Virus record (IMG/VR): IMGVR_UViG_3300033154_000088
Coordinates: 1-25,490 of that record
Reading direction: 5' to 3' (one strand)
Source of the DNA: a virus
Length of the DNA stretch: 25,490 nt
Every line of letters begins with the position of its first letter. Positions within the stretch are counted from its first letter, which is position 1. Below, piece after piece: positions 995-25,490 of this stretch. Below the pieces are notes generated by a model, which saw only the letters and a program-made list of their open reading frames with translations, was not told the DNA's origin and made no database searches. Made by a program: the position numbers and the translations under genes.

Positions 995-3900
995 TCGAAG
1001 CCAACGAGCTGCAGCGCGCCATCGACCGGGCGACGGAGCTCGGCTACGAGCTCGTGATCCAGGGCGACCGGCCGGCGCTGATCCCTCGACAAGGTCTCCG
1101 CCCCGAGGACCTCGACGACCTGGGCGTGACCGATCCCGAAGCGCACGCTCGAGAAGCGCAGCGGCTGATGGACGAGGTCGATCCGCCGCAAGGCGAGGCG
1201 CCGGCCAACCGCCACCCCGACACGCAAAGCTGGCTCGACGAGCAGGGCGCGGTATCACCCGCGATGCAGCGAACGGCGCGCGAATCAAGCCTGCTGCGTG
1301 CAACGGCAAGCCGCACAGGAAGAGCCCTCGAGTCAAACTTCCAGACCGCTCGAGAGGCTGCTACCAGAGAGCGGTCGGAGATCGTCGCAGAGTACGACCG
1401 GCTGCGCGAAACAGGGGAGCCTCTCGCGGCCGACCGCTACCTGAGGGACCGCGGCTTTTACGCAGACGACGACGGCTACCTCCACGAAATGGGAGAGCCG
1501 GCCCAGGGCGCAGAGCCCGACTCGATGGCGCGCGACCGGGCGATGGCCGATGAGGACACCGGCGCGCACATCCCGAGCTGGGACGACATGGGCATCCTCG
1601 AGCGCCGGGCGCTGCTGCGCACCGAGGCAGCCGAGCGCGCCGCCGGCGGACCTCTCGCCAACCTCGAGGCTTCCGACCTGCAGGACCTGTTCGAAGCCGT
1701 CGCCGACCAGGGCGACATCGCCGCCGCTCGAGGGATCGGGACGCACATGGGGCTCGATGACGCCACGGTCGACGCGCGACTGTCGCGGCTGGCCACTCCG
1801 GAAGAGCCCGGCCAGGCCGCAGGCGAGATTGACCAGACCGTGGCCGACCAGATCTCCGACCTGCTCGAGCTGGGCGAGGTCGAAGACGCGGTCTCAATGG
1901 CCGAGCGGCACGGGTATCGGATCTCCGACGACCAGCAGTCGCTCCATCGTCTCGACGAATTGCCCGACGGTTCTCACCACCTGAGCAGCCCGTCACTGGG
2001 CTCGCAGCTTCCGTGGGCAAATGTCGAAGGCAGCACCGATGAGTTCATCGAGCTCCTGGACGCACTCGAGGTGCGCACCTCTCGCGGCCTGGCGCAGCTG
2101 CCCCAGCGCGAGCTCAATACCCTGCGCAGGAACTACAACGACCTGATCGAGGGCGGCGCAACCGAGTCTGCGGAGAACCTGATCTCGATTGCTGGCTATC
2201 ACGTGAACGACAACGGCGTCGTCGTGTGGAGCCGAGGTCAGAGTGCCAACCCGTACCCGCGCGACCAGCTTGGGATCGAGCGTGACGGCGTTGCTCCCCC
2301 GCAGACATGGGGACTGCTCGAAGGCGAGTTCGACGACATCGCGCGCCTGGTCGACGAAGTCAGGCAAAGCACCCGCGAGGGCAGTATCCGACTGAGCAGC
2401 GCTGACGAAGATCACCTGGCCGATGCGGTCGCAAGCCTGACACGCCCCGGCGACGGTGGCGACGGCCTGGCTGAGTCTCTTCTGGAAGCGGCCGGCTACG
2501 ACATCGGCGACGCCGGCGAGCTCGTCCACCTCGCAAGCCGCAACCGCTCGAGATACGGCCGGCAAGAGTCAGTAGGCACCGGGTCGGAGATGACCGAGGC
2601 CGAGATGCAGCGGCAGCAGCGGCTGGGTCTCGAGCAGTCACTCGACGGACGCGCGCACGACCTGGCGCAACCGTTCGAGCCCTCTGCGCTGCATCCCGCA
2701 CCGACTAACATGAGCGACAGCCTTCCGGCTCGCGAGACCGACTCCGTCGAAGAAGCGCTGGCGTGGGCGCGCAGCGGGAACCACTTGAAATACGCAGACA
2801 AAGCGAAGACGAAGTTCGTCGGCGCACCGACGGAGATGGTCGGGCGCGAAGGCCTGCAGGCATTCCGCGACAACGCCGACGACTACTTCAAGCGCGGACT
2901 CGAGGCGCTGCGAGCTCGAGGCAAGCAGCCGGCCTGGTATCCCGAGAGCCGCGAGACGATTGGTGCACTGGCGAAGGGCCGCGATGCGCAGTCGAGGTTC
3001 GCACGCGAGATCTCGCTTATGAGCGCCGATGCACCGCCGCAAGCCAACTACGCCTGGGCGATCGAAGGGCACAACGCGCGAGCGGTGGGCGGCACGCCTC
3101 CCGACGGGATCCTTCACACCGGCCGGCAGTGGGAGCAGATGCAGAACGATCCGGTCGGGCCGCTGTCGCTGAAGACGGGCCCGTTCGCTCAGACGCTGCA
3201 GCCCTGGTCCAGGGGTATGACACATCCGGTCACAGACCGGCAGATGATGGAGGGGCTCGGCTATCCCATGAAGTCGGCGAAGAACGCGACCCCGACGCAG
3301 CACCGGTTCATCGACGCGGAGATGCTCCTGGCGATGGAGCGAGCGCAGCAAGCCTCGCATGGCGGGCGCGCCGACTGGGCGGTCGAAGACATCCAGGAGA
3401 CGATCTGGACGGTGGTCAAGGCCGAAGGCCTGATGCGGCAGCGCAACATTGGGTTCGACGAGGCCTTCGACGAGGCGATGGCGGACTACTCGTCCTTCGC
3501 CGACTGGCACCGCGGCTACGCGGAGCACTCCTCGAAGACAAGCTGGGCGGACGACGAGGGGCGCGACATCCTCTACGACGCGATCGACTTCTACCAGGAC
3601 CCGACGATCGAAGCCGGCGCCGGCGCATCTCGAGTCGCCCGTCCGCAGGTGACCGTGACCGGCGTCCCGACGGGCAAGTTCAGCAAGACGGGTTCACCCT
3701 CGAAGAGCGGCAAGCAGGTCGGCGAGACGGACCTGGCTGCGATGGGGAAGGTCGAAGCATTCCGCGGATTGATGTCGGGCTCCGACGAGGGCCTCGCCTA
3801 CTCGACGCAGGCCTACAAGGACATCCCGGTGGGAACCGAGCGCGGCGGTGCAGGTGCAACCGTCGGCCAGGCGACCGGGTTCACGATCGAGCACGGCGAG

Positions 3901-4464
3901 ACGCTGTCGCCCGAGCAACTGCAGGAAGTGATTCGAATCGGCGAGGAGTTCGGCTTCACCGGAGACGCCTCCTTTGTGTCGAATCGCGGAACCTCGACGG
4001 TGGTCACCCGCACCGATGGACCCCGAGGCGGGCTGACACGCGACCTGCCGCAGGTTCACGGTGCGCTGACCGAGGCCGGTGTGCCTGTGAAGCCGGGCGG
4101 TTTGTACCCGTCTCGCACGGACTCGGTCAGGACCGCCTACGACTGGAGCGAAGAGGGCTCGGGTGATCAGTTGCGGGCGATGTTCAAGGAGCTCGACGGA
4201 CCCGAGGCGCCCAAGGTGCTCGAGCTACTCGACGAGAGCCCCGAATCTCGAGCTCGAGTCAAGCAGCACATGGACGAGGCATCCGACCGCGCGATCGAGG
4301 ACGGCACGCTCGACCGGAAGGACCTCAGGAACATGCGGCGGATCTACTCGGAGGGGGGCCTGACCGCGCTCCGCCAGGCACTAGCTGACGGAGCGTGGCT
4401 GCCTTCGATCACCCTGCCGCTTCTGTTGTGGGCGATGGGTGGGGAGGCTCAGGATGAGACGTAG
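892..4464 (+). CDS. Large phage polyvalent/virion-internal protein, downstream segment
   Basis: This frame is formally open from 391, but its first ~150 codons are an Arg-rich shadow of the upstream segment; real sequence begins near 853. The ATG at 892 is the first usable start after the junction but has a poor ribosome site, so fusion to the upstream segment is more likely. Domains in order: six degenerate helical repeats (about 979-2532) each ending in a GY-x-I-x-DDG-x-L pattern; a linker; a domain at about 2935-3423 with WYPES, THPVTDRQMM, ATPTQHRFIDAE and ETIWTVVKAEG blocks; a C-terminal region ending in a short hydrophobic stretch (LPSITLPLLLWAM). From memory, the 2935-3423 blocks resemble a domain common in phage and plasmid polyvalent proteins (DUF7178-like), with the conserved TxDRxM and QxxIW features. 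Such giant proteins are often packaged and injected with DNA; that role is inferred here from size and position beside the terminase. Confidence 0.7.
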   Translation: MRQRDERASGNDAIAGTGRFSERAQAAAREVHALIEANELQRAIDRATELGYELVIQGDRPALIPRQGLRPEDLDDLGVTDPEAHAREAQRLMDEVDPPQGEAPANRHPDTQSWLDEQGAVSPAMQRTARESSLLRATASRTGRALESNFQTAREAATRERSEIVAEYDRLRETGEPLAADRYLRDRGFYADDDGYLHEMGEPAQGAEPDSMARDRAMADEDTGAHIPSWDDMGILERRALLRTEAAERAAGGPLANLEASDLQDLFEAVADQGDIAAARGIGTHMGLDDATVDARLSRLATPEEPGQAAGEIDQTVADQISDLLELGEVEDAVSMAERHGYRISDDQQSLHRLDELPDGSHHLSSPSLGSQLPWANVEGSTDEFIELLDALEVRTSRGLAQLPQRELNTLRRNYNDLIEGGATESAENLISIAGYHVNDNGVVVWSRGQSANPYPRDQLGIERDGVAPPQTWGLLEGEFDDIARLVDEVRQSTREGSIRLSSADEDHLADAVASLTRPGDGGDGLAESLLEAAGYDIGDAGELVHLASRNRSRYGRQESVGTGSEMTEAEMQRQQRLGLEQSLDGRAHDLAQPFEPSALHPAPTNMSDSLPARETDSVEEALAWARSGNHLKYADKAKTKFVGAPTEMVGREGLQAFRDNADDYFKRGLEALRARGKQPAWYPESRETIGALAKGRDAQSRFAREISLMSADAPPQANYAWAIEGHNARAVGGTPPDGILHTGRQWEQMQNDPVGPLSLKTGPFAQTLQPWSRGMTHPVTDRQMMEGLGYPMKSAKNATPTQHRFIDAEMLLAMERAQQASHGGRADWAVEDIQETIWTVVKAEGLMRQRNIGFDEAFDEAMADYSSFADWHRGYAEHSSKTSWADDEGRDILYDAIDFYQDPTIEAGAGASRVARPQVTVTGVPTGKFSKTGSPSKSGKQVGETDLAAMGKVEAFRGLMSGSDEGLAYSTQAYKDIPVGTERGGAGATVGQATGFTIEHGETLSPEQLQEVIRIGEEFGFTGDASFVSNRGTSTVVTRTDGPRGGLTRDLPQVHGALTEAGVPVKPGGLYPSRTDSVRTAYDWSEEGSGDQLRAMFKELDGPEAPKVLELLDESPESRARVKQHMDEASDRAIEDGTLDRKDLRNMRRIYSEGGLTALRQALADGAWLPSITLPLLLWAMGGEAQDET
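979..2532 (+). repeat. Six degenerate helical protein repeats
   Basis: The encoded units lie at about 979-1092, 1378-1491, 1672-1782, 1834-1953, 2107-2229 and 2404-2532. Each has a helix with regularly spaced Leu, a short G-D/E loop, an Ala-rich helix, then a turn. Example turns are AERHGYRISDD, ISIAGYHVNDNG, LEAAGYDIGDAG and RDRGFYADDDGYL. The third unit is the most diverged. The similarity is at protein level only; the DNA copies have drifted apart. Confidence 0.55.
4441..4447 (+). promoter_or_regulatory. Shine-Dalgarno GGGGAGG deciding the 4454 start
   Basis: GGGGAGG lies six bases upstream of the ATG at 4454, inside the end of the preceding gene. It favours 4454 over the in-frame ATG at 4439 and supports translation of this short ORF. 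Confidence 0.5.
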
Positions 4465-4621
4465 AAACGCCGTGCGGCTCGAGGCGGCGGCGCTCGCGCT
4501 CTTCCTCGGCTCGCTCGCGGCGAAGCCGGACGAGCTCGGCGTTGGTGAGGCCCTGGTGCTGGGGACTTTCGATGCGTCGAGTCATATCTACTCCTTCGGC
4601 ATACCAGACCATGAATTATAG
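4454..4621 (+). CDS. Small hypothetical protein with hydrophobic N-terminus
   Basis: The product is 55 residues. It starts with a basic stretch (MRRRNAVRLE) followed by a hydrophobic segment (AAALALFLGSLAA), then a polar tail ending in PDHEL. The layout is that of a short membrane anchor or a weak signal sequence. The gene overlaps the 3' end of the large left-hand gene by 11 nt in another frame, has a strong ribosome site, and is followed after 21 nt by the next small ORF. I do not recognise the family. A small membrane protein such as a holin-like or accessory factor is possible, but nothing beyond the single hydrophobic stretch supports it. The opposite strand also carries a short ORF here (4409-4612), which lacks a good start. 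Confidence 0.45.
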   Translation: MRRRNAVRLEAAALALFLGSLAAKPDELGVGEALVLGTFDASSHIYSFGIPDHEL

Positions 4622-4642
4622 CTCACCATAAGGGGGTGCACC

Positions 4643-4894
4643 ATGCAGGGCAAGTACAACGACATCTCGGACAGCCCGAAGAAGGGCACGACGCAGGACA
4701 CGCCGGCGGCAGGTCGCCAGCGGCGTGAGGGGCACCCCAACGGGGGTGAGGTGGCTCGGGTGGACGTTCCGCGCTCGAAGATGCCGCAGAACCAGAGCTC
4801 GACGCCGCTGCAGAGCTCCCCGCTCAACACCGACTTGGGGAAGATGCCCAAGCAGATGAGTGGGCCGCAGCAGCGCGACCCGCGGCGCCGGTAG
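4643..4894 (+). CDS. Small disordered hypothetical protein
   Basis: The product is 83 residues, polar and apparently disordered, rich in Gln, Pro, Ser, Lys and Arg, with no cysteine, no membrane segment and a basic end (QQRDPRRR). A good ribosome site (AGGGGG at 4631-4636) precedes the ATG, and the gene stops 9 nt before the next start. It lies in the short cluster directly before the large terminase. I do not recognise a family. Position alone would allow a packaging accessory or a virion protein, but no helix-turn-helix or other terminase small-subunit feature is visible. Confidence 0.6.
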   Translation: MQGKYNDISDSPKKGTTQDTPAAGRQRREGHPNGGEVARVDVPRSKMPQNQSSTPLQSSPLNTDLGKMPKQMSGPQQRDPRRR

Positions 4895-4903
4895 GGAGCC
4901 GTC

Positions 4904-5098
4904 ATGACGAATGCCGAACTAGGTGAACTCACGCGCGACGTGATGATGCGCAGAATCTCGTCTCGGGAGAAGCTCGCGTTGCTCTGCGAGGGAGTGGCAG
5001 AGGTGGCGGTGGCGGAGAAGCCGAAGCCGCCGACACCGCCGCCGCCGCCGGCCAGCAAGAAGACGACACGCAAGAAGTCGAGCTCGCGCACAGGGTGA
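4904..5098 (+). CDS. Small hypothetical protein preceding terminase (possible TerS-like)
   Basis: The product is 64 residues in two parts. Residues 1-38 look helical (start MTNAELGELTRDVMMRR, then SSREKLALLCEG). Residues 39-64 are a Pro run followed by a Lys/Ser/Arg tail (KKTTRKKSSSRTG). GGGAG at about 4894-4898 serves as the ribosome site. The stop overlaps the GTG start of the terminase gene by four bases (GTGA), so the two are probably translationally coupled. The slot directly before terL is where a small terminase subunit often lies. The N-terminal helices could be a shortened remnant of one, but the protein is well below the usual TerS length and the assignment is only positional. Confidence 0.6.
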   Translation: MTNAELGELTRDVMMRRISSREKLALLCEGVAEVAVAEKPKPPTPPPPPASKKTTRKKSSSRTG

Positions 5099-6567
5099 GC
5101 ACTGCGGGCGACATGATCGCGTTCAATGAAGTCCCGGAATGCACCTCGGTGCAGGCGGCGTCGATCTACGAGCGCTGCCAGAAAGATCCGGGCTTCTTCG
5201 TGCGCGAAGTGATCGGCGACAACGCCTGGGAGACCCAGGTCGCCATCATGGAATCAGTGCGCGACCACCGCGTGACGGCCGTCCCGTCATGCCACTCGAG
5301 CGGGAAATCGTGGACCGCTGGGCGTGTCGCACTCTGGTTCGGCGCCTGCCACCCAGGTGCCAAGGTCATCACCACCGCACCCACCGAGCGCCAGGTGAAG
5401 GGCGTACTCTGGGGAGAGATACACCGCGCAGCAAAGAGCTCGAAGATCCCGCTCGGCGGCGAGGCGACAGCGATGCAGCTGAAGTTCGAAGCCGATCACT
5501 GGATCTGGGGCTTCACCGCCCCCGACTGGGACGAGTCGCGGTTCCAGGGTTTCCATGCGCCGCACATCCTCGTCATCGTGGATGAAGCCTCTGGAATTTC
5601 AGCAGCCCTGATGGATCAGATCGACTCGCTCCTGGCCGGGGGCCATGCGCGCAAACTCCTGATCGGGAACCCCGTCATCGCCGGGTGTAGCTTCCAGCGC
5701 GACTGCGAGTCGCCGGCAGTGCACACGATCCCGATCTCGGCGTGGGATACGCCGAACTTCCAGACATTCGGAATCACCGAGGCCGACATGATCTCGGGAG
5801 AGTGGGAGGAGAAGATCAAGGATCAAGAGATGCCGCACCCCGAGCTCATCACGCCGGCGTGGGTAGCTGAGCGTCTCGCGATCTGGGGAGTTGACTCGAT
5901 GGCGTGGCAGTCGCGGATCCGCGGCGAGTTCCCAGCCATCGTCGAGGGCGCCTACTACGGCGAGCTCATGTCGAAGGCGCGCGAAGAAGGACGCATCGCA
6001 TCGTTTCCCTACGACCCCGCCTATCAGGTGAGCACCGCATGGGACATCGGCATGCGCGATGCAACCGCAATCTGGTTCTACCAGCAGATCGGCAACCGCA
6101 TTCACATCATCGACTACTACGAGGCGACCGGCCAGGGCCTGCCGCACTACGCAAAGGTGATTCACGACAAGGGCTACGTCTACCGCGAACACATCGCACC
6201 GCACGACATGAAAGTTCGTGACTGGGGTCCGGGTGTTGCGCGGACGATCGTGGCCAGCGAGCTCGGGATCAACTTCCGAGTGCTCGAGAAGATCGTCGTG
6301 AGGATGGGCGGAGAACTATCGGAGGGCATCGACGCTGTTAGGCGCACGCTCCCTCTCTGCTACTTCGACGAGCAAAACGCGGGCGACGGTATCGCTGCAC
6401 TCGAGGCCTACCGGCGCAAGCGCAACCGATCGACGGGCGGCCTCACGGACATCCCGGAACACGACTGGGCGTCACACGGTGCGGATGCGTTCCGCTACCT
6501 ATCACTCGGAAGGCTCAACAACGCGAGCACGCGACGGCCCAAGCCGAACACACGCTGGATGACGTAG
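5095..6567 (+). CDS. terL: Terminase large subunit
   Basis: This is the DNA-packaging motor: an ATPase that drives DNA into the prohead plus a nuclease that cuts the concatemer. In the 490-residue product the ATPase domain carries a Walker A (SCHSSGKS, residues 65-72), a Walker B followed by the catalytic Glu (ILVIVDEAS, 158-166) and a GNP coupling-type motif (191-193). The RNase-H-like nuclease domain carries acidic residues in TAWDIGMRDATAIW (314-327), HDMKVRDWG (370-378) and DWASHGADAFRYL (457-469). The length is normal for the family. GTG at 5095 overlaps the previous stop; an in-frame ATG at 5113 is the alternative start, and neither has a strong ribosome site. The portal gene begins 9 nt downstream. 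The assignment is firm; the packaging mode (headful or cos) cannot be read from the sequence. Confidence 0.96.
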   Translation: MSTAGDMIAFNEVPECTSVQAASIYERCQKDPGFFVREVIGDNAWETQVAIMESVRDHRVTAVPSCHSSGKSWTAGRVALWFGACHPGAKVITTAPTERQVKGVLWGEIHRAAKSSKIPLGGEATAMQLKFEADHWIWGFTAPDWDESRFQGFHAPHILVIVDEASGISAALMDQIDSLLAGGHARKLLIGNPVIAGCSFQRDCESPAVHTIPISAWDTPNFQTFGITEADMISGEWEEKIKDQEMPHPELITPAWVAERLAIWGVDSMAWQSRIRGEFPAIVEGAYYGELMSKAREEGRIASFPYDPAYQVSTAWDIGMRDATAIWFYQQIGNRIHIIDYYEATGQGLPHYAKVIHDKGYVYREHIAPHDMKVRDWGPGVARTIVASELGINFRVLEKIVVRMGGELSEGIDAVRRTLPLCYFDEQNAGDGIAALEAYRRKRNRSTGGLTDIPEHDWASHGADAFRYLSLGRLNNASTRRPKPNTRWMT

Positions 6568-6576
6568 GAGACCGCA

Positions 6577-8877
6577 ATGGCAGACGAAATTCCTGGAACG
6601 CGCGCACCCTACGAAGACCTCGAGCAGGGGGAGGAGACCGCGTTCCCATCGGTCGAAGGCTTCGAAGAAGTTGACGTGCCCGAGGACTACCCCGAAGACC
6701 AGCCGCCGGCATCCGATGAAGAGGCGGGGAGCGCGTGGGTGCTCTCCGATGGTCACTTGCTGGCGGTCGTGCAGTCCGAGCTCGACTCCGGCCTGGGCTG
6801 GACCGGGACGCGGATCTCAGAGGCGCGGCGCTACTCGCTCGCCAAGTATTTCGGCAACCCTCGAGGCGACGAGCGCGAAGGCCGCAGCCAGGTGGTCACC
6901 CGCGACGTGTTCGAGCAGGTCGAGTGGCTGCTCCCGTCGCTGATGGAGATCTTCTGCTCGGGCCCGAGAGTGGTCCGCTTCATGCCGACGGGCGACGAAG
7001 ACACCGACTCCGCTGAGCAAGCGACCGAGATGGTCAACCATGTGTTCGCACGCGAAGATGGGCCGATGGTGCTCTACACGATGTTCAAGGACGCGCTGAC
7101 ACAGAAGAATGGCATCGTGAAGGTGTGGTTCGAAGACTCCGACGCCGTCACCTTCGAAGATTACGCGGGCAAGAACCTGATGGAGTTGCAGGCAGTCTTC
7201 GACGACGAAGACTACGAAGTCCGCGCCGTACAGGCGTGGCACATCAATCAGAAGTCGGGCGAGCGCGAGGACCTGGACGAGACCAGCCCGCTCCCCGAAA
7301 ACCATGACCCGATGCGCGTGCGATACGACATCGAGGGCGTGCGCTACAAGCGGCGCGGCAAGATCTGCCTCGAGAACATCCCGCCGGAAGAGTTCGTGAT
7401 CAATCGCGACTGCCGAGGCCTCGAGGACCCGAGCTGTCGATTCGCAGCGCACCGCGTGCGCGCAACCGAGAGCTCCCTGATCGCACTGGGCTACGACGAG
7501 GCCACGGTCAAGCGGATTCCCAGCGCGCACTCTGTTTACGGCACCGACCAGGACGCGATCGTTCGAGCCAGCCAGGACGACTCGCACCCCCTGATGCTCG
7601 GCGACCGCAAAGACTCTCAGAGATCGGTCTACATCACCGAGTCCTACATTTTGGTGGACCGGGATGGGGATGGCATCAGCGAGTGGTGGAAGGTCGTCAC
7701 CGGGGGGGACTACGGCCAAGCCCTGCTGTCAGCTGAGCCCTCAAACGGTCACCCGTTTGTGTCAGTCACTCCCATTCCGGTCCCTCATCGCTTCTATGGC
7801 CTGTCGCTCTCCGATGTCGGCAGCGACCTGCAGGAGATCAACACCACCCTGTGGCGCCAGTTCATGGATTGCCTCTACCTCGCAACCGACCCGCGCAGCA
7901 TCGTGTTGTCGCGCGGCGAAGGCGACGCGGCGACTCCGCTGGTGAATCTCGACCAACTGCTCGACTCCGCAGCCGGCGGCTATATCGAGGAGTATGCGCC
8001 CAACGCGATCCGACCCTTCGAGTCGAAGAGCAACGCCGCTGACATCATTCCTGCGATGGAGATGCACTCGAAGATGAAGGAGGCGCGCACGGGGATCTCG
8101 CCCGACGCGATGGGCATCAATCCCGAGTCGATCTCGAAGCACGTCTACGGGACGATGGTGCAGAGCTCGGCGGCGGCGACGCGGATGACGATGTACGCGC
8201 GGATCTTCGCGGAGACCGGCGTCAAGCACCTCTTCCAGAAGATCTACATGCTCCTGATGCAACACGACACGCGCGGGATGACGATTCGCGTGCGCGGCAA
8301 GTACGTGCACGTCGACCCGACCGCCTGGTCGACCGAAGCAGATTGCCAGGTGACGGTGGGCCTCGGCCACGGTTCGAAGATGGAGAAGGGCATGAACCTG
8401 CAGACCATTGGCGAGGTTCAGAAGCAACTCCACGAGGCCGGGCTGAGCCACATGGTGTCACCGACCAACGTCTACAACACCGTCTCCGACCTGGTCGAAG
8501 CGCTCGGCTTCCGATCGCCGGAGCAGTATTTCACGGACCCGACAACGGTCCAGCCGCCGGAGCCTCCGCCGGATCCGACAGCCGACGCGGTGAAGGCCGC
8601 GTCCGAAGTCGAGTTCATGCGGGTGGAGCTCGAGCGCCAGAAGGTCGAGCTCGAGCGTGACAAGCTGATGCTGAACATCAAGGAGGTCGAGCTCAAGCAC
8701 GAGGTCGAGATTCAGAAACTCCGGAAGGACGGCTACGCTGCGACGCCAGATATGCAGTGGACGTTGCCGAAACCGAAACCAGAAGAGGGATTCGAACCGA
8801 GGCAGGAAGCGGAGCTACCGCCCCCGCCTCTCGAACAACCAACGCCCGCAGACGCCGGGCCTGAAGGAGTAGTCTGA
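6577..8877 (+). CDS. Portal protein (P22-type)
   Basis: The product is 766 residues; it would form the dodecameric ring at the DNA-entry vertex that docks the terminase and later the tail. Residues 1-50 are an acidic, Pro-rich arm. The core begins near residue 55 with the characteristic block SEARRYSLAKYFGNPRGDE (81-99) followed by VTRDVFEQVEWLLPSLMEIF (107-126), as in P22-like and related podovirus portals. Residues about 675-718 form a highly charged coiled coil with repeated VELER/VELK heptads, and the last ~45 residues are Pro/Glu-rich. A GGAG ribosome site precedes the ATG. The large size, compared with the 450-600 residues of many portals, fits the P22-type barrel-containing class. The stop overlaps the ATG of the histone-like gene by one base (TGATG). 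Confidence 0.9.
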   Translation: MADEIPGTRAPYEDLEQGEETAFPSVEGFEEVDVPEDYPEDQPPASDEEAGSAWVLSDGHLLAVVQSELDSGLGWTGTRISEARRYSLAKYFGNPRGDEREGRSQVVTRDVFEQVEWLLPSLMEIFCSGPRVVRFMPTGDEDTDSAEQATEMVNHVFAREDGPMVLYTMFKDALTQKNGIVKVWFEDSDAVTFEDYAGKNLMELQAVFDDEDYEVRAVQAWHINQKSGEREDLDETSPLPENHDPMRVRYDIEGVRYKRRGKICLENIPPEEFVINRDCRGLEDPSCRFAAHRVRATESSLIALGYDEATVKRIPSAHSVYGTDQDAIVRASQDDSHPLMLGDRKDSQRSVYITESYILVDRDGDGISEWWKVVTGGDYGQALLSAEPSNGHPFVSVTPIPVPHRFYGLSLSDVGSDLQEINTTLWRQFMDCLYLATDPRSIVLSRGEGDAATPLVNLDQLLDSAAGGYIEEYAPNAIRPFESKSNAADIIPAMEMHSKMKEARTGISPDAMGINPESISKHVYGTMVQSSAAATRMTMYARIFAETGVKHLFQKIYMLLMQHDTRGMTIRVRGKYVHVDPTAWSTEADCQVTVGLGHGSKMEKGMNLQTIGEVQKQLHEAGLSHMVSPTNVYNTVSDLVEALGFRSPEQYFTDPTTVQPPEPPPDPTADAVKAASEVEFMRVELERQKVELERDKLMLNIKEVELKHEVEIQKLRKDGYAATPDMQWTLPKPKPEEGFEPRQEAELPPPPLEQPTPADAGPEGVV

Positions 8878-18176: not shown

Positions 18177-19904
18177 ATGGCGACGTTCAGAATCAGAGAT
18201 CCGAAGACCGGCAAGATCGTGGCGACGGTCAGCGGCGACGGCACCGAAGAGGAGGCCCTCGCTCACTTCGAAGCCAGCCAGGGGATCAAGCCACCGCCGT
18301 CAGGCGCTCCAGTGGGCCCGAAAGTCGGATCCCGGCCTGATGGGTCGGGTGGGTATCAACCTCACGACAGGGGCTACCCTGGCAAGCCGGAGCAATACCG
18401 CGCGACGCCGGACTACGACTGGCAGGACTACGCCGGCGGCTTCGGCAAGGGCGCTGCCATCGGCGGGGCCATGGGCCTCCCGTTCGGTGGCCCGGCTGGA
18501 GGCCTGACCGGGGCAGCGGCCGGCGGCGTGGGTGAGGTGGCCTCGATGGGCTTGAACCAGATGGGCTTCGGCGGCGGCACCCAGATGGGCGGATCCATGC
18601 TCGCGGATGCCGGAATGTCGATGGTCTCGAGGCGCCACGCTGCGAAGATGGCCATGAAGATCCCAGGCGTCCGTGGCTTCACGGAAGACGCGATCGAGTA
18701 CCTCGGCAAGGGTGAGGCGTGGGACTCCGTAGGGGGAGCCGTCAAGCGCTTCCTGGGCCGCAACTGGGCAGCCGAGTCGACGGGCATGGCGCAGCGTCAG
18801 GCCGGCAAGCTGGTCAGCGACCTGCCCTCGCCGCCGCCGGCCGGGACCAACCCGGTCGTCGATGTCGGCGAGCAAGTCCGCAGTGGCCACCAGATGATGA
18901 ACGACACCTACCAGGGCGCGCGCCGCCAGGCCGAGAAGGAAACCATGGGCATGCGTGGCCGCGCCGAACCCGTCATCCGGAAGAGCGAGGAGTTGCTCGA
19001 CCGGTTCACTCACATGGACGACACGCCGAAGGTGCTCAGCGATGGCGCTGCCCTTCCCAGCGAGATCGGCCTGCACGAGGCCGAGAACTTCCGCGGCGCT
19101 GCGGGGCAGTACGACGAGCTGCACGGGCCCTACGACCAGGTGCTCGACGACCTCACCTCGACCGCCGACGAGTACGGGCCCGCCGCCGAATCGGTGCGGA
19201 AGATGCGCGGAGCTCGAGAAGCGGTGGAGCAGTCAGCCCCCGAGAGCAGCGGGACCTACCAGTACCTGATCGGCAAGGGCCGAAGCGACAATGCGAGCAA
19301 GGCGCTCGAGCGAATCCTCTCGAGCGATATGTCGGTCACCGAGGTGAAGCGGATCCGCTCGCTGATGAACAGCGTCGGCGATGACATCGCGCTGCGGCGC
19401 GCGGCAGTGATTCACATCCTGCAGCGTCGACTGGGCGAGCAGGCGGCGTCGGTTGCCGGCAGCCCGCAGGTCGGCGAGCTCATGTCACTCGGCGGACGAT
19501 CCTCGAGCGAGTCGGCGGCGCTGACCGAGATCCTCGGCGAGCGCGGCTTCGGCCACCTCGAGGACCTGATCACCGCGTCGAAGGCTGGGAAGCAGGGCGG
19601 CAAGACGGGCGCCATCGCATCGCGGATGCTGCTGTATCTGGCCGGCGCATCTTACGGCTCGACACTCAGCCCCACGGCGACGACTGCGGTGCTCGCACTG
19701 GGCGGTGTCGTCGAGGCCTTCATGCGACAGAACGGCAAGCAGGGCGTGGCGAAGCTGGCGGTCGCGGCGCTGTTGGATGCCGACATCTATCGAGCAGTGA
19801 CCATGGGCGCGGCCGTCAACAATGCCGAAGCTGCAGCCGTGCGACTGGGGCAGACCCTGGTGCGACGCGGCCTCTTTACTGAAGACGAACTTGGAGGCGA
19901 CTGA
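18177..19904 (+). CDS. Internal virion / DNA-ejection protein 3
   Basis: The product is 575 residues. The N-terminus (FRIRDPKTGKIVATVSGDGT, then EEEALAHF) is a small domain that I associate with the start of ejection proteins in other phages. Residues 87-134 are extremely Gly/Ala/Met-rich with membrane-active character (GAAIGGAMGLPFGG, GAAAGGVGEVAS). The centre is long charged helix. Near the C-terminus lies another hydrophobic stretch (MLLYLAGASY and TTAVLALGGVVEAFM). Such a mix of soluble helices and fusogenic segments fits a protein that inserts into the host membrane during DNA delivery. Ribosome site GGAG; gap of 3 nt before it and TGATG overlap after it. I see no enzymatic domain. Confidence 0.68.
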   Translation: MATFRIRDPKTGKIVATVSGDGTEEEALAHFEASQGIKPPPSGAPVGPKVGSRPDGSGGYQPHDRGYPGKPEQYRATPDYDWQDYAGGFGKGAAIGGAMGLPFGGPAGGLTGAAAGGVGEVASMGLNQMGFGGGTQMGGSMLADAGMSMVSRRHAAKMAMKIPGVRGFTEDAIEYLGKGEAWDSVGGAVKRFLGRNWAAESTGMAQRQAGKLVSDLPSPPPAGTNPVVDVGEQVRSGHQMMNDTYQGARRQAEKETMGMRGRAEPVIRKSEELLDRFTHMDDTPKVLSDGAALPSEIGLHEAENFRGAAGQYDELHGPYDQVLDDLTSTADEYGPAAESVRKMRGAREAVEQSAPESSGTYQYLIGKGRSDNASKALERILSSDMSVTEVKRIRSLMNSVGDDIALRRAAVIHILQRRLGEQAASVAGSPQVGELMSLGGRSSSESAALTEILGERGFGHLEDLITASKAGKQGGKTGAIASRMLLYLAGASYGSTLSPTATTAVLALGGVVEAFMRQNGKQGVAKLAVAALLDADIYRAVTMGAAVNNAEAAAVRLGQTLVRRGLFTEDELGGD

Positions 19905-20827
19905 TGCCGTCACTTATTCTTGGACAATGGTCCCTCACTCATTCCACCAACGGCTTCGCCGTCCCTGACGGAGCTCCGGAAGGATGGTTCGGCGGAGACA
20001 TCAACTGGTGGGGCCGCGAGATCATGACGGTGATTCGTACCTGGTACGACGACCCCGAGTGGCTGTCGGTCACCGAGGACCTCGCGACTCGCAACCCGAA
20101 GCCGGTCGTGCAGCTGAACGCCAGCGCCTTCCAGGTCCAGGACTGCGACGCGACCGACTACTTCACCACGGGCCGGCGCGTTCGGCTCCGCAACGGCATC
20201 ACTGCAGTGGAGGCCACCGTCAAGTCCTCGAGCTTCGGTGGGACGCACACCGATGTCGAAATCGTCGGCACCAACGTGCCGGCGACGATGGACACCGACG
20301 GCGCCGATGTCTACTTCGCCAAGTCGATCGACCCGAGCGCGTTCGCTTCCCAGCCGGCGGTGGGCGACATGAAGATGACCGCGGGCCTGCAGTCAGCAGC
20401 AGCCGCGGAGGGGTGGCTCGAGTGCAATGGCCAAGAGGTGCTTATCGCTGACTACCCCGTGCTGGCGGAGGTGCTCGGCTCGCCGCTCGGCACTCAAATC
20501 GGGCACTACGACTACCACCCGTCGCTCGGTCTCCCGACCATCGGTAGCGTGCGCGTCCCGGACATGGCGGGCCGTGTCCCTGTCGGATTCTGGGATGACG
20601 CCACGCACCCGGCCGGCGTCGCATCGGAGCCGGACGACGACTACGACTACACCAACGGGCTCGACATCGAGGAGAAGCGAGACAAGGCCTGGGGCGGCGA
20701 GAAGACTCACGAGATTCTCGAGGCCGAGATGCCGCTTCATGACCATGAACACGTCACGAGCGGAACCCATGTCCACCCGGCTGACGGGGACAACCCCACC
20801 ATACAGGGCAGCGTCAAGAGACCATGA
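19904..20827 (+). CDS. Tail-collar-domain protein (main frame)
   Basis: The product is 307 residues as read. Residues 1-140 are beta-rich and probably attach to the tail. Residues about 154-230 are a phage tail-collar-type domain: VGDMKMTAGLQ, then GWLECNGQEVLIADYPVLAE, then IGSVRVPDMAGRVPVGFWDD. It continues with a His-rich segment (MPLHDHEHVTSGTHVHP) typical of metal-binding receptor-tip strands. The frame ends prematurely at TGA 20825-20827. The missing C-terminal block lies in the +1 frame (see the next entry). GGAGG ribosome site; start overlaps the previous stop (TGATG). The protein is likely a short tail fibre or a fibre-adaptor at the tail tip. Confidence 0.75.
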   Translation: MPSLILGQWSLTHSTNGFAVPDGAPEGWFGGDINWWGREIMTVIRTWYDDPEWLSVTEDLATRNPKPVVQLNASAFQVQDCDATDYFTTGRRVRLRNGITAVEATVKSSSFGGTHTDVEIVGTNVPATMDTDGADVYFAKSIDPSAFASQPAVGDMKMTAGLQSAAAAEGWLECNGQEVLIADYPVLAEVLGSPLGTQIGHYDYHPSLGLPTIGSVRVPDMAGRVPVGFWDDATHPAGVASEPDDDYDYTNGLDIEEKRDKAWGGEKTHEILEAEMPLHDHEHVTSGTHVHPADGDNPTIQGSVKRP

Positions 20828-20927
20828 CCACGACTTCATCGCGCAGGGCGATGCGGCCAACAACCTGCTCGACCTGCGCCAGCCGCACATCGTGATGGGA
20901 TACGTCATCTACACTGGCGTCGCCTAA
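20826..20927 (+). other. Displaced C-terminus of the tail-collar protein (+1 frame)
   Basis: In the +1 frame, directly after the TGA of the collar gene, the sequence reads DHDHDFIAQGDAANNLLDLR and then QPHIVMGYVIYTGVA, ending in TAA at 20925-20927. H-x-H and the L-x-PHIVMGYVI ending are what a collar protein should finish with. Its stop overlaps the ATG of the next gene (TAATG), and that gene has no Shine-Dalgarno of its own. This therefore looks like the natural end of the collar protein reached by a +1 shift or lost by an indel around AAGAGACCATGAC (20815-20828). Confidence 0.7.
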
Positions 20928-23900
20928 TGCGTCGACTGCTGCTGCTGGCCGCGATCCTCTTCGCGCTCCCAGCGAGCGCGCAGCCGTGGGCCGACGGAGT
21001 TCCGGACGAGTACGGCCAGGCGCTCTACAACCAGGCCTTCACCTACACATGGACGGTCGACGGCTACTCGCCGAGCCCGCATCAGGACATCTCTGCGTGC
21101 GTGGAACGGTCAACGGTGGTCATCGCCGGAGGCCCTGCTGGCGTGCAGGTGTACGACTGCGACGAGAGCGACTCCGACACGTCACGGTGCGTCCAGGTTG
21201 TATCGACATCGGATCCTGGAACGTGGGAGATCAACTTCTCCCGCAACTGGGTAATGGTCAGGATCACGTCGTCGTCCGGCGGCGGCACGGTTTCCGTCCA
21301 GTGCAACGGCGTCGACAACCAGACCTTCGACGGATCTGCATGGGTGCCGACTTTCCCTGGGCCTTGGCTGAGTTCGATCAAGGTGAACGGGGTTGAAGCC
21401 ACCGACCCTGATTTCCTCGATTCGGACGACATCAAGCTGACCCTCTGCGACGGTCCCTTGTCGCCGATCATCGCCTGCGGCGCGGCTGGCGAGATCTTCC
21501 CTGAGTACATCTATCAGAGCATCATGAACAGCGATGTCGCCCCGTCTGCCAACATCGACGGTTCCAAGATCGAGCTCGCTACCGAAACGAAGCGCGGGAC
21601 ATTGCGCAAGGCGACGCAGCTGGAGGTCGATGCTGGAACGGAAAACCAGATGACGATCTCGCCTGAGACCCTCGAGGGACGAGCTCTCGATGGGGAGCTT
21701 GGCGGGACCATCGGAGACCCGACGGTTGCAAACGATCACGCCGGCAGCCCACACCACGACATCTACACATTTCCCGACGACGTGATCGTGAACGGGCAGC
21801 TCCAGGTTACGGATACCCCATACTCCATCACGCTGTTTGCCGAGCCGTCGAACGACATCATCCGGGCGACAACCGCAGAGACGCACGGGCTGACGAGCTC
21901 GCAGGTCGCCATCTCATCCTTCCGGCTCTGCGCCGGCCTCGACGTCTGCGCCCACGCTGCCCAGCTGCCAACGGACAGCGCCGGCCAGGAGATCATCGTC
22001 GAGGGGAGTGGAGACCAGAACGGCGCGTACATCCCCTCCGATAATGTGTCGCCGGGCAGCACCTGGTCGTCCATCCTGCAGAACGGATCGGACGTTCAGG
22101 TCACCACATCGGCGACGCACTACCTCATCGCCGGGGAGTCGATCGAAGTCACGGGCACGACGAACTACAACGGGACGCACACGATCACGGCGGCGAGCGG
22201 AACGACCTTCGACTTCACGCATGCGTTCATGGGCGACGACTGCTCGGCTGGATGCAACGCGGCAAACGCGACGTCCAACGACTCGTTCACATTCACCAAC
22301 GCCGGCGGGACGTACTCTGGAAGCGGCACATGGACATTCGGCCGCAAGGTCACCATCCGCGACACGACGAATCACAAAGGCACATGGACAGCCTTCAACT
22401 TCACGGCCACGGCATTCGACTTCTACGACGCCTGGCCAGGCTCGAGCGAGGCGCCTTCTACCTACACCGCCATCATCCGGTTCCTCGAGGGCGACACTAC
22501 CCCCGACGTAGACGGCGGAACCTTCTTCGAGACCGCAGAGAACCCAGTGGTGGTTACCAACTTTCTGTGGTCCGGAGCTCAGGCCGACGAGTTCGGCCAC
22601 GTCCTCTACATCCGGTCGATGGGCAAGACCGATTACGATTGCACAGCGGGATACCTGAAGTGCGGAACCAACGTCATCTCGACAAGCGCTGGAGATATTG
22701 CGGTGTGGGTGGGTATCGAGCGCGACGGGACAGGATCGACCTACTGGAACCTGCTCAGCTACACCGACCAAGATCAGAGCTACGGCAATCGGTTCCTTCA
22801 AGAAGTGGACCCACAATCGTTCGGGATCACACACCTCAAGGACACGAAATTCCACGGCTACGTGGACGTAGGCTCGGTTGAATATTTCATCGAGGACGAC
22901 GACACACCGAACGTATCAAACGGCGTGTTCTTCTATAGCTACGAGTGTACGGACAACTACGATTCGCACTGTGTGGATATTTACAACTCGCGCTCTGGCG
23001 GTCCTTGCAACGATGGCGACGTACAATGCTCCGGTAGTAATGATGGACTGTGCGACTTCGACGCGCTCTCTGTTCCAGCCCAAGTTCCGCAGCGGGTAGG
23101 ATCTGCCGACACCTTCTGCGATGCCGACGGCGTAACGAGTGCTCCCGACACTCCGATCGGCGGGTTGTATATCGAAAACTTCGACGGCGGCGTAGACGGC
23201 CAGCTCATCATCGTTGTGACGAAAGAGCAGACCCTCACCTTTGATTGCACCCTCTCTCCCCAACTCGTATGCGGCACAGCCGATCTCATTACCGGGGTCG
23301 AAGACGTAAGCCAGTGGATCTACAACGGCGTCAGCGACGAGTGGCACCTCATCGCCTTCGAGAACAACAACCTCGGCGGCGCTCTCAAAGCCAGCACCGC
23401 CACCAAGAACACCTTCACAGAACCGCAGACACTTGAAGGTGGCGTGATCTACGGAGCCCCGACAGTGTTTGCTGATGGCGACACCGAGCCCGACGTAGGT
23501 GGTGCAACGAATTGGGTCACTGACGACGACAACAGCGTGACCTTCACGGCACTTGTCGGTGGCATTGACGGTGCCATGATAACGGTGCGAGCCGATTACT
23601 TGATGACATGGGACTGTGGTGCAGCAACGATCAGTTGCGGTACGGGACTGCTCGCGCAGCATGACGAAGACATCACACAGTGGATCTACGACGCCGCAAC
23701 GAGTTCGTGGCTGCTTATTGGTTACTTCAATACCAGCACCGAGCACAACCAAGACTATGCCACGCGCGTAACCAACACATTCACGGGGATTCAGGACGGG
23801 TCTGGTTGGGAGATCACGCCTCTCGGTCGTGGAACATTCGGTCTGTACGTTGCTGCCGACTTCTATGCAATCGCAGGCACAGGGATCATGAGCTTCGGCA

Positions 23901-25141
23901 CGCAAGGAACGATCCCAACCCAGTACGACTTCCTCTCTGACCTCGGATACGTCGTCATCGACAGCGACATCGCGATGGAAGAGATGCTCACGAACCTCGG
24001 CTACGGCACGGGGTACGGCACCTTCTGGACGAAGACCGCCACTCCCAACCTGCCCATGTTCAGCGACGATGCGAACAATGAAGGGCAGCTCGCGCGAATT
24101 GAGTTTGACCACACGTGGACCGGGCTCCAGACCTTTGACTACGTGGGCACCCGCCAATGGGACCCAACTCCCACCTACGATGCCATCATCGGCGACCTCG
24201 TTGGTGGGCAGCTACGACTCGGCACAGCTTCTATCGGCATGGCTGACTCCAGCTGGGCAGGCGTAGCAACCGATGACATCTTCATGTTCCGTAACACCAC
24301 GGCCCCAGCATCCTTCGTAGAGTTCCTGTTCATGGGATCGAACGGTGTCCCGCGCTTCGTCATGCCAACGGAAGGCGCTGACCGGGCCACCTACAACCCG
24401 CGCTCTATGGTCATCGGCCCTGCTGCCACGATGAACAACATCAGCGACAACATCCTCTGCTCCGAAAACTTCACGCACATTGATTGCAACACCTCCGCAA
24501 CCGGAGCCGATCTCGGCGTGCAAGATGACCTTGAAGTGCTTGGCGATATTTACGCTGAAGGAACGATGTTCTCCATAACCTTCGACCGCTTCGGCGCTGG
24601 CCCGCTAACCTTTGGCTCGGTCGATGTGACGTACCTCGGCTTCAACACCGATGCCGGTGCGCTCATCATGGATGGCGGCTTCTGGTATGCGAAGAAGGGG
24701 GCGCGCGGCTTCACGCTCGATGGCTACGGAGAATATTGGATTGCAGAGGTGGGCACCGAAACGGAGCCGGTCTTTTCAAGTGACGACATAGCCAAAGATT
24801 ACGTCCTCAACTACATGCCTCCCGTCTGCACCGTCCTGTATGCGCCACTCACAGGGGAACAGCTCGAGAGCATCTGGCGTGCGACACATTCGGTCACGAT
24901 TAAAGAGATCTGGTGCGAAACGGACGCGGGCACGGTGGGCCTCGACATCAACATCGACGACGGTACACCGCTCGGGATCAACGGCTCCGACATCTCCTGC
25001 GCCGTCTCGACCGGCACCTCCGACACGTCGTTCGCCAATAGCGCAACCCTGGCGGCAGGCGATCGGCTCGACTTCGACATCGGAACCGTCGTCACCGCAG
25101 AGCGTGTCTCGATCTGCTTCCACCCCGAGGCGATCCTGTGA
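20927..25141 (+). CDS. Giant secreted-type, cysteine-paired tail fibre protein
   Basis: The product is 1404 residues. Residues 1-18 are a classical Sec signal peptide: MRR, hydrophobic core LLLLAAILFALP, cleavage box ASA before Q19. I count 28 cysteines, mostly in close pairs (C572/C579, C774/C782, C897/C904, C439/C443, C1178/C1187). The order is: beta-rich N-terminal part; a collar-like TISPETLEGRALDGELGG linker (243-260); two TTN-(Y/H)-(N/K)-GT fibre modules (about 389-503); three larger modules starting D/E-GDTxPDV with a T-x-D-C-x6/7-CGT pair and a W-x-LIxY close (519-935); a long fibre region; and a C-terminal domain (1298-1404) with VTIKEIWCETDAGT and DISCAVSTG. There is no ribosome site; translation probably depends on the TAATG coupling. 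It is likely the host-recognition fibre. The signal peptide is unusual for a virion protein. Confidence 0.85.
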   Translation: MRRLLLLAAILFALPASAQPWADGVPDEYGQALYNQAFTYTWTVDGYSPSPHQDISACVERSTVVIAGGPAGVQVYDCDESDSDTSRCVQVVSTSDPGTWEINFSRNWVMVRITSSSGGGTVSVQCNGVDNQTFDGSAWVPTFPGPWLSSIKVNGVEATDPDFLDSDDIKLTLCDGPLSPIIACGAAGEIFPEYIYQSIMNSDVAPSANIDGSKIELATETKRGTLRKATQLEVDAGTENQMTISPETLEGRALDGELGGTIGDPTVANDHAGSPHHDIYTFPDDVIVNGQLQVTDTPYSITLFAEPSNDIIRATTAETHGLTSSQVAISSFRLCAGLDVCAHAAQLPTDSAGQEIIVEGSGDQNGAYIPSDNVSPGSTWSSILQNGSDVQVTTSATHYLIAGESIEVTGTTNYNGTHTITAASGTTFDFTHAFMGDDCSAGCNAANATSNDSFTFTNAGGTYSGSGTWTFGRKVTIRDTTNHKGTWTAFNFTATAFDFYDAWPGSSEAPSTYTAIIRFLEGDTTPDVDGGTFFETAENPVVVTNFLWSGAQADEFGHVLYIRSMGKTDYDCTAGYLKCGTNVISTSAGDIAVWVGIERDGTGSTYWNLLSYTDQDQSYGNRFLQEVDPQSFGITHLKDTKFHGYVDVGSVEYFIEDDDTPNVSNGVFFYSYECTDNYDSHCVDIYNSRSGGPCNDGDVQCSGSNDGLCDFDALSVPAQVPQRVGSADTFCDADGVTSAPDTPIGGLYIENFDGGVDGQLIIVVTKEQTLTFDCTLSPQLVCGTADLITGVEDVSQWIYNGVSDEWHLIAFENNNLGGALKASTATKNTFTEPQTLEGGVIYGAPTVFADGDTEPDVGGATNWVTDDDNSVTFTALVGGIDGAMITVRADYLMTWDCGAATISCGTGLLAQHDEDITQWIYDAATSSWLLIGYFNTSTEHNQDYATRVTNTFTGIQDGSGWEITPLGRGTFGLYVAADFYAIAGTGIMSFGTQGTIPTQYDFLSDLGYVVIDSDIAMEEMLTNLGYGTGYGTFWTKTATPNLPMFSDDANNEGQLARIEFDHTWTGLQTFDYVGTRQWDPTPTYDAIIGDLVGGQLRLGTASIGMADSSWAGVATDDIFMFRNTTAPASFVEFLFMGSNGVPRFVMPTEGADRATYNPRSMVIGPAATMNNISDNILCSENFTHIDCNTSATGADLGVQDDLEVLGDIYAEGTMFSITFDRFGAGPLTFGSVDVTYLGFNTDAGALIMDGGFWYAKKGARGFTLDGYGEYWIAEVGTETEPVFSSDDIAKDYVLNYMPPVCTVLYAPLTGEQLESIWRATHSVTIKEIWCETDAGTVGLDINIDDGTPLGINGSDISCAVSTGTSDTSFANSATLAAGDRLDFDIGTVVTAERVSICFHPEAIL
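22091..22435 (+). repeat. Two TTN-x-x-GT fibre modules
   Basis: The encoded modules run from about 22091 to 22216 (residues 389-430, with ESIEVTGTTNYNGTHTITAA) and from about 22286 to 22435 (454-503, with GRKVTIRDTTNHKGTWTAF). Each ends in T-x-FDF. A more diverged copy may start near 21851 (NDIIRATTAETHGLTSSQVA). Similar short beta modules recur in phage fibres and bacterial surface proteins. Confidence 0.6.
22481..23731 (+). repeat. Three cysteine-pair beta modules in the fibre
   Basis: The modules are A (22481-22771), B (22886-23362, with an insertion carrying extra cysteines) and C (23468-23731). A and C begin GDTxPDVxGG; B begins DDTPNVSNG. All contain a T-x-x-C-x6/7-CGT-type pair (A: C572/C579; B: C774/C782; C: C897/C904). 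B and C end in QWIY-x6-W-x-LI. They are clearly related at protein level only. Confidence 0.6.
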
Positions 25142-25490
25142 GGTGGCTCGCCCTGGTGCTGATCGTCCTGGCTGGGCCTGCCCTGGCTGACTCGCAACAG
25201 CAGCCCAACGGCACGACCGTTGCGGAGAACGGAAGCTGCACCACCTCGACCGCACACGGCACGCTGGACGATGATCCTGATTCCCCTGGTGGTGACTGGT
25301 GCGATCCGAACGCCAGCAACTCCGCGCATCACATCATCATGAACCTGACCGACCCGACCGCCGCGCTCGACAACACGACCGATGCGCAAGTGTTCGCAAT
25401 CTACTTGAAGGAGAGCCACGGGGGGACCGGGCAGGCACAGGTGAGACTCGACATCTTGGACGGGACCAACTGCGCTGATCTCCACGAGTC
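25138..25490 (+). CDS. Second signal-peptide-bearing fibre-region protein (3'-partial)
   Basis: GTG at 25138 overlaps the stop of the large fibre (GTGA), and the frame stays open to the window edge, giving 117 residues so far. GAGG lies about 9 nt upstream. The N-terminus, (M)RWLALVLIVLAGPALADSQ, is a textbook signal peptide: one Arg, hydrophobic core and an ALA cleavage site before Asp18. The mature part begins polar, contains NGSCTTSTAHGT, DWCDPNASN and TNCADLHES, so three cysteines appear in the visible part, and looks beta-rich. The rest lies outside the window, and I recognise no family. It is the second exported-type protein in a row at the fibre end of the operon. Confidence 0.75.
   Translation, partial: MRWLALVLIVLAGPALADSQQQPNGTTVAENGSCTTSTAHGTLDDDPDSPGGDWCDPNASNSAHHIIMNLTDPTAALDNTTDAQVFAIYLKESHGGTGQAQVRLDILDGTNCADLHE

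Follow-up and report, generated by a model that had tools for sequence, protein, structure and literature searches.

The locus described here raises the question of why the gene for a phage tail fibre should begin with an export signal, and where the exported fibre would go. The window, i.e., the whole stretch of DNA that was analysed, comprises 25,490 bases and is a viral record of IMG/VR. It carries genes for a terminase, a portal, a scaffold, a major capsid protein and a phage-stabilisation/nozzle protein, and judging from this gene set the phage is short-tailed. The major capsid protein is about 33 to 41% identical to those of Manatee Spring contigs, HTVC106P, Methylophilales phage Venkman and rhizobial phages. 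At its end the window contains a collar-domain fibre gene, which is followed by two consecutive genes with predicted signal peptides (Table 1).

A companion contig, IMGVR_UViG_3300033155_001697 (G001; 34,371 bases, 99.94% identical), extends the fibre region of the window and independently carries the fibre gene and the second gene, both with intact leaders. The second gene is complete in G001 (L002:10212-11270) and encodes 352 aa, consisting of the leader, a Cys-containing domain and a Thr/Pro repeat tail of about 165 residues; the protein ends in this repeat and GGPAPCRTIFMR. Thr/Pro repeat tails are commoner in bacterial surface proteins than in phages. An endolysin gene (phrog_465, 2.9e-25) lies near the signal-peptide genes, downstream in G001, and holin and spanin genes are probably among the G001 genes that follow them. 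At 20817/20818 the window lacks 68 bases of G001, either by an assembly error or by a real deletion, and because of this gap the collar fibre gene is broken into two frames. About 90 bases of G001 are also absent at positions 843-847; the first large gene, a single Cys-free ORF of 1361 aa in G001, is split in the window into ORFs 2-994 and 391-4464. Elsewhere in G001 a 141-aa ORF (L004:5903-6325), on the strand of the RecE/RecT-like genes, has a leader-like N-terminus (...VEFAGA^QEPHPD).

Table 1. Features of the fibre region, in positions of the window
Feature	Position	Strand	Evidence or remark
Collar-domain tail fibre gene, no signal peptide	19904..20927	+	Pfam PF07484 Collar 3.9e-8; phrog tail fibre matches; stop at 20827 in the window, single 363-aa ORF in G001 ending at the fibre start
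Signal-peptide fibre, ATG start, 1404 aa	20927..25141	+	phrog_972 4.9e-7, phrog_910 2.3e-6 (tail fibre)
Sec signal peptide of the fibre, MRRLLLLAAILFALPASA	20927..20980	+	Predicted SPase I cut before Q19, then QPW
T4 gp12/gp34-type shaft motif, residues 204-272, ...TKRGTLRKATQLEVDAGTENQMTISPETLEGR...	21536..21742	+	phrog_972/phrog_910
Internal repeat 1, cysteine pair C572/C579	22487..22786	+	Alignment
Internal repeat 2, cysteine pair C774/C782	23126..23380	+	Alignment
Internal repeat 3, cysteine pair C897/C904	23471..23746	+	Alignment
C-terminal tip domain, residues 1292-1404, all-beta, C1330 and C1358	24800..25138	+	Alignments, AlphaFold2, Foldseek
Second signal-peptide gene, GTG start, cut by the window end	25138..25490	+	Open reading frame
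Sec signal peptide of the second gene, MRWLALVLIVLAGPALA	25138..25188	+	Predicted cut before D18, then DSQ

The leaders were scored with a rule-based Sec/SPase I scorer written for this analysis. It found OmpA, MalE, LamB, DsbA and Lpp (five of six known E. coli leaders) and rejected LacZ; since it missed PhoA, it is counted as conservative. Both N-termini have a charged n-region, a hydrophobic h-region and small residues at -3 and -1. Cleavage was predicted after residue 18 of the fibre (score 47.7) and after residue 17 of the second protein (score 45.3), as the preliminary description had proposed. A score of at least 45 at the annotated start was reached by 7 of 1029 viral genes (150 aa or longer, from about 180 loci) compared with 0.3 in shuffled sets, and both leaders belonged to the top 1% of the genes scored. 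In 20,000 shuffles of each N-terminus the observed score was never attained. No lipobox was present at either cut site, as the cuts are followed by Q19 and D18 instead of C, and Pfam gave no outer-membrane barrel match in the fibre, its N-terminal domains or the domains of the second gene.

The fibre ATG overlaps the stop of the collar gene (TAATG), and the GTG of the second gene overlaps the stop of the fibre (GTGA). Start/stop overlaps were surveyed in the window and in L049, L055, L060, L211-L213, L215, L241, L251, L200 and L068. In nearly all cases the start of a signal-peptide gene overlapped the upstream stop (TAATG, TGATG or ATGA) or was at most 5 bases off. Because such overlap or near-contact is the rule at homologous loci, the leaders are not mis-called starts and a downstream start is untenable. 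An artefact caused by a wrong start codon, a mis-assembly or a chance hydrophobic N-terminus was nevertheless considered, as the two gaps relative to G001 indicate that the assembly of the window is imperfect. However, in G001 the two genes and their leaders are intact, the arrangement recurs in other phages, and the shuffles and stop/start overlaps rule out a chance hydrophobic N-terminus or a mis-called start. This reading is thus refuted for practical purposes and retains hardly any probability, while export of both products by Sec, as predicted from their N-termini, is strongly supported.

The 1404-aa protein is a real fibre, by its shaft motif and the model of its tip. The shaft motif matches T4-type shafts, and tblastn aligned it with short tail fibres at 38-51% identity over 53-70 aa, with weak E-values. 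The AlphaFold2 model of the C-terminal 113 residues was all-beta (pLDDT 74, pTM 0.64), and Foldseek matched it to phage tail fibre and minor tail proteins and to C1q/TNF-like trimers. The model of an internal repeat (pLDDT 50) was too poor to use. A PDB sequence search gave nothing for the fibre, and the PDB matches of the second gene were rejected as artefacts of its Thr/Pro repeat. Searches with the whole fibre, its N-terminal part, the repeats, the tip and the second gene gave no named-phage relatives beyond the weak shaft match. The fibre has modules in common with known fibres and occupies a late tail/lysis position beside the collar fibre gene, with the endolysin downstream, as a tail fibre should. 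It departs from the usual condition of a tail fibre, which is synthesised in the cytoplasm and has no export signal, by its leader with an SPase I site.

The preliminary description had also counted 28 cysteines in the fibre, largely in short-spaced pairs, and few in the other structural genes. The count proved exact, with ten close pairs compared with 5.4 expected by chance (P=0.002). On G001 the two mature signal-peptide proteins contain 35 Cys in 1721 aa and the other virion-type proteins 17 Cys in 6146 aa (odds ratio 7.5, P=2.5e-12), so that the poverty of the other structural genes was confirmed as well. The three internal repeats are only 30-35% identical, with the D-C...C-G-T pair, including both cysteines, invariant in all three. 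The tip cysteines C1330 and C1358 were invariant in the first five homologues and common to signal-peptide homologues elsewhere; they are missing in the leaderless L116 and also in L200/L253, where the leader is present. The mature Cys count was even in 20 of 22 complete phage signal-peptide genes, which are not independent of each other; the second gene of the window (7 Cys) is one of the two exceptions. The cysteines are therefore paired, conserved and even in number, as expected of disulfides, except for the odd count in this second gene.

The first pattern used to scan for the tip domain demanded a Cys and was thus biased. Without this demand, in the second viral pattern and in the genome scan, the same class was recovered together with two Cys-less homologues, the leaderless L116 and the leader-bearing L200/L253; the link between cysteines and leader is therefore strong but not absolute. 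Cysteines are few in spite of the leader in the L253 signal-peptide fibre and the L105 signal-peptide genes (0-2). The fibres of the named phages Cr-LKS3 and MW202475, which have modules in common with those of the prophages but no leader, contain 0 and 1 Cys, respectively.

Homologues were sought by tip-motif pattern scans, a genome scan and profile searches of 396 and 200 Acidobacteriota genomes. Similar signal-peptide fibres at related loci, for which the preliminary description had suggested a search, were found in prophages and in IMG/VR contigs. The recurring arrangement is a fibre gene, a coupled signal-peptide fibre gene and one or more coupled signal-peptide genes, often followed by lysis genes. 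About six Acidobacteriota prophages share it, as do IMG/VR contigs of at least four other kinds. Homologous leader-bearing tips occurred in the IMG/VR contigs L049, L055, L060 and L068/L252 and in the Bryobacteraceae/Acidobacteria loci L211-L213, L215, L241 and L251. In these prophages J or an equally large tail protein is followed by small tail genes, a leaderless fibre base, a signal-peptide fibre of 250-500 aa and one or two more signal-peptide genes. A lysozyme-type endolysin (2.4e-58) comes next after the signal-peptide genes in L211, and the tail context in L251 includes a central tail fibre J (3.8e-16) and a minor tail protein. L055 and L060 show the same arrangement as the prophages, and it is also present in L049, L252/L068 (35% GC) and L253/L200 (37% GC), which represent other kinds of phage. 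In L123 a leader directly precedes a fibre-like domain. Judged from GC and gene content, not from trees, the leader-bearing loci appear to be separate lineages. As other phages and prophages of Acidobacteriota have the module too, it can be considered a selected arrangement.

Several observations were made on individual loci. The second signal-peptide gene of the Bryobacteraceae prophage in L211 (6267-6977) encodes a type I dockerin domain (Pfam 1.3e-5). L253:2759-7358 (- strand) and its flanking genes comprise four or five signal-peptide genes in a row, which come after a 1245-aa internal-type protein. In L105, a chance find, three signal-peptide genes in succession lie beside capsid-like genes (4176-7600, - strand, and the adjacent gene); they contain 0-1 Cys, and one of them has an F5/8 type C domain.

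The leader is not a property of the capsid lineage of the window, since the relatives sharing its capsid (HTVC106P, Venkman, C72C1, MW202462 and L010-L021) have no leader on their fibre genes. It is also not typical of fibres with the shaft motif, since the fibres that turned up when viral contigs were scanned for the shaft pattern were leaderless. No cultured phage sharing the window fibre was found. Relatives without a leader and with a start further downstream, which would have spoken against export, were not seen among the tip-sharing relatives with intact N-termini; the sole exception was L116, a cysteine-less and leaderless tip homologue.

The leaders at homologous loci are divergent (MRRLIYLMLVWALPATA^Q, MRLLILSLLAASAALA^Q, MGRLVLLFSLSAGALLA^Q and MRNALVIIFCFISICLPAFG^Q) and keep the charge, the hydrophobic core, the three-region layout and a small-residue site that is usually followed by Q. 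This bears on the possibility that the hydrophobic N-terminus does not work as an export signal but serves an ordinary fibre of the cytoplasm as a helix for attachment or assembly. To our knowledge, all known tail-fibre assembly is cytoplasmic, as this possibility would have it, and we know of no export or cross-linking step for ordinary tail fibres. However, the n/h/c layout and the small-residue cut site before Q or D are retained despite divergent sequence, the same type of leader occurs on two to five consecutive non-homologous genes, the cysteines are enriched and even in number, and module-sharing fibres without leaders have almost none. A helix of this kind is therefore very improbable. 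It had been one of three meanings suggested for the leaders and is now the least likely of them, because the leaders diverge yet keep an A-x-A^Q-like site on several unrelated neighbouring genes.

The same tip domain was also found on apparently non-phage, chromosomal secreted proteins of Acidobacteriota (L242, L250, L246, L248 and L249). They resemble the fibre in their signal peptide, paired cysteines, fibre-like modules and consecutive signal-peptide genes, but the 10-20 kb around them contained no recognisable phage genes. In two Acidobacteriota genomes, signal-peptide genes that encode phage-fibre-like modules (VKVEQGGTGAASAAGAR) follow one another in clusters, at L242:8317-11285 and L250:8181-11175. 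Because of its presence on these proteins, the tip module seems to move between phage and cell-surface uses. The products could thus be surface proteins of infected or lysogenic cells, i.e., a moron or adhesin similar to lambda Lom, binding surfaces, neighbours or polysaccharides through fibre modules. Apart from the similar proteins at non-phage loci, this would agree with the extracellular-type domains of second signal-peptide genes (dockerin in L211, F5/8 type C in L105) and with Lom, a signal-peptide protein whose gene has the same place, between those for the tip and the side fibre (PMC12309495). The fibre has no Pfam outer-membrane barrel, however, its translational coupling to the fibre operon makes expression outside the late phase unlikely, and no integrase was noticed in the contig of the window phage, which is incomplete. 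On balance a surface protein is quite unlikely.

The best explanation in our view is that the products of the late fibre operon are exported, disulfide-bonded and joined to virions at lysis, an account to which we give slightly less than an even chance. The fibre and the second protein would be translated together with the collar fibre by way of the stop/start overlaps, which are evident from the sequence. Sec leaders, for which the N-termini argue strongly, would carry both proteins across the inner membrane, and signal peptidase I would remove the leaders. In the periplasm the cysteine pairs would form disulfides and the beta-rich fibre would fold, probably as a trimer, as pairing, parity and fold suggest. 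The proteins would then wait there during cytoplasmic assembly of the virions until the adjacent endolysin and spanin genes open the envelope; the fibres, locally at high concentration, may thereby encounter the virions and finish or lengthen the tail from the outside. This last step is the least certain. The products should build up in the periplasm and be freed when the envelope opens, because they belong to a late fibre operon and have no recognisable lipobox or outer-membrane anchor, and their fibre identity and gene position speak for their joining the virion then. The earlier proposal that leaders and paired cysteines indicate an oxidising destination outside the cytoplasm was upheld, also at related loci; as to the final destination, the sequence is compatible both with joining virions at lysis and with acting on cells or receptors.

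Several points speak against this explanation. No means by which an exported fibre would find the tail is apparent from the sequence. The cysteines are not universal, being few or absent in the L253 fibre and the L105 genes, and the occurrence of the tip domain on chromosomal secreted proteins means that the module could be a cell-surface protein. In another signal-peptide protein a match to the tail fibre phrog_863 (2.4e-22) starts at residue 18, just past the leader, and takes in only the distal part of phrog_863 (from position 398 of 690). A 259-aa signal-peptide protein of L253 matches the virion structural phrog_10356 (1e-15) from residue 29, again only in the distal part (from position 379 of 852). 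Both matches speak for a fibre identity of the signal-peptide proteins, but because only the distal parts of longer structural proteins are matched, these two proteins may lack the usual part for attachment to the virion.

Leader proteins without a recognisable virion-attachment part, as in L251 and L253, would also suit an exported receptor mask or decoy, in which fibre tips freed into the periplasm and the medium at lysis bind receptors on debris and neighbouring cells and so spare the progeny virions a futile attachment to dead envelopes or to cells that are already infected. The signal-peptide genes lie just before or beside lysis genes, which would fit such a function, and T5 Llp is a published case of a secreted phage protein preventing adsorption to lysed fragments (PMC9586334). 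However, the fibres have no lipobox or outer-membrane anchor, a multidomain fibre of 1404 aa with a shaft is large for a mask, and Llp is made early, while the signal-peptide fibres belong to a late structural operon. We consider a mask or decoy somewhat unlikely.

If the fibres join virions at lysis, some tailed phages would finish their tails outside the cytoplasm, with distal fibres that are exported by Sec, oxidised in the periplasm and attached only at lysis. This general proposition is possible, but is put forward with reserve. Such phages could use disulfide-stabilised fibres on particles built in the cytoplasm. No description of signal-peptide tail fibres was found by full-text search of the open-licence literature, and an extracytoplasmic assembly route for tail fibres, if it exists, would be categorically new. 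In a published survey the variable proteins of phages were without signal peptides, unlike the bacterial ones, and this absence was used as a sign of phage origin (PMC6199706). Recurrent Sec-exported fibres would mean either a new extracytoplasmic step of virion completion or new late exported phage proteins that act on receptors, and such a class would change the prediction of fibre genes and host range from genomes of soil and other environmental phages.

Fibres of the T4 gp12/gp34 type lack a signal peptide, and their folding takes place in the cytoplasm with the help of chaperones. The window fibre resembles them in its shaft repeat motif, its multi-domain beta-rich build and its position after the collar fibre gene, but differs by the N-terminal leader and the abundance of cysteines. 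The model of its tip matches the folds of C1q/TNF-like proteins and of phage fibre tips (such as the fibres of Gordonia phage GMA2 and Agrobacterium phage 7-7-1); it differs in its low identity and in the two cysteines, which among those examined are common only to signal-peptide homologues. Phage T5 Llp, a secreted superinfection-exclusion lipoprotein that stops wasted adsorption to debris, is likewise a phage protein exported by a signal peptide and acting on the receptor side (PMC9586334). It is, however, a small early lipoprotein with a lipobox and without fibre modules. The Lom gene of lambda, like the genes described here, is a signal-peptide gene inside a siphophage tail-fibre region (PMC12309495), but its product is an outer-membrane barrel and not a fibre.
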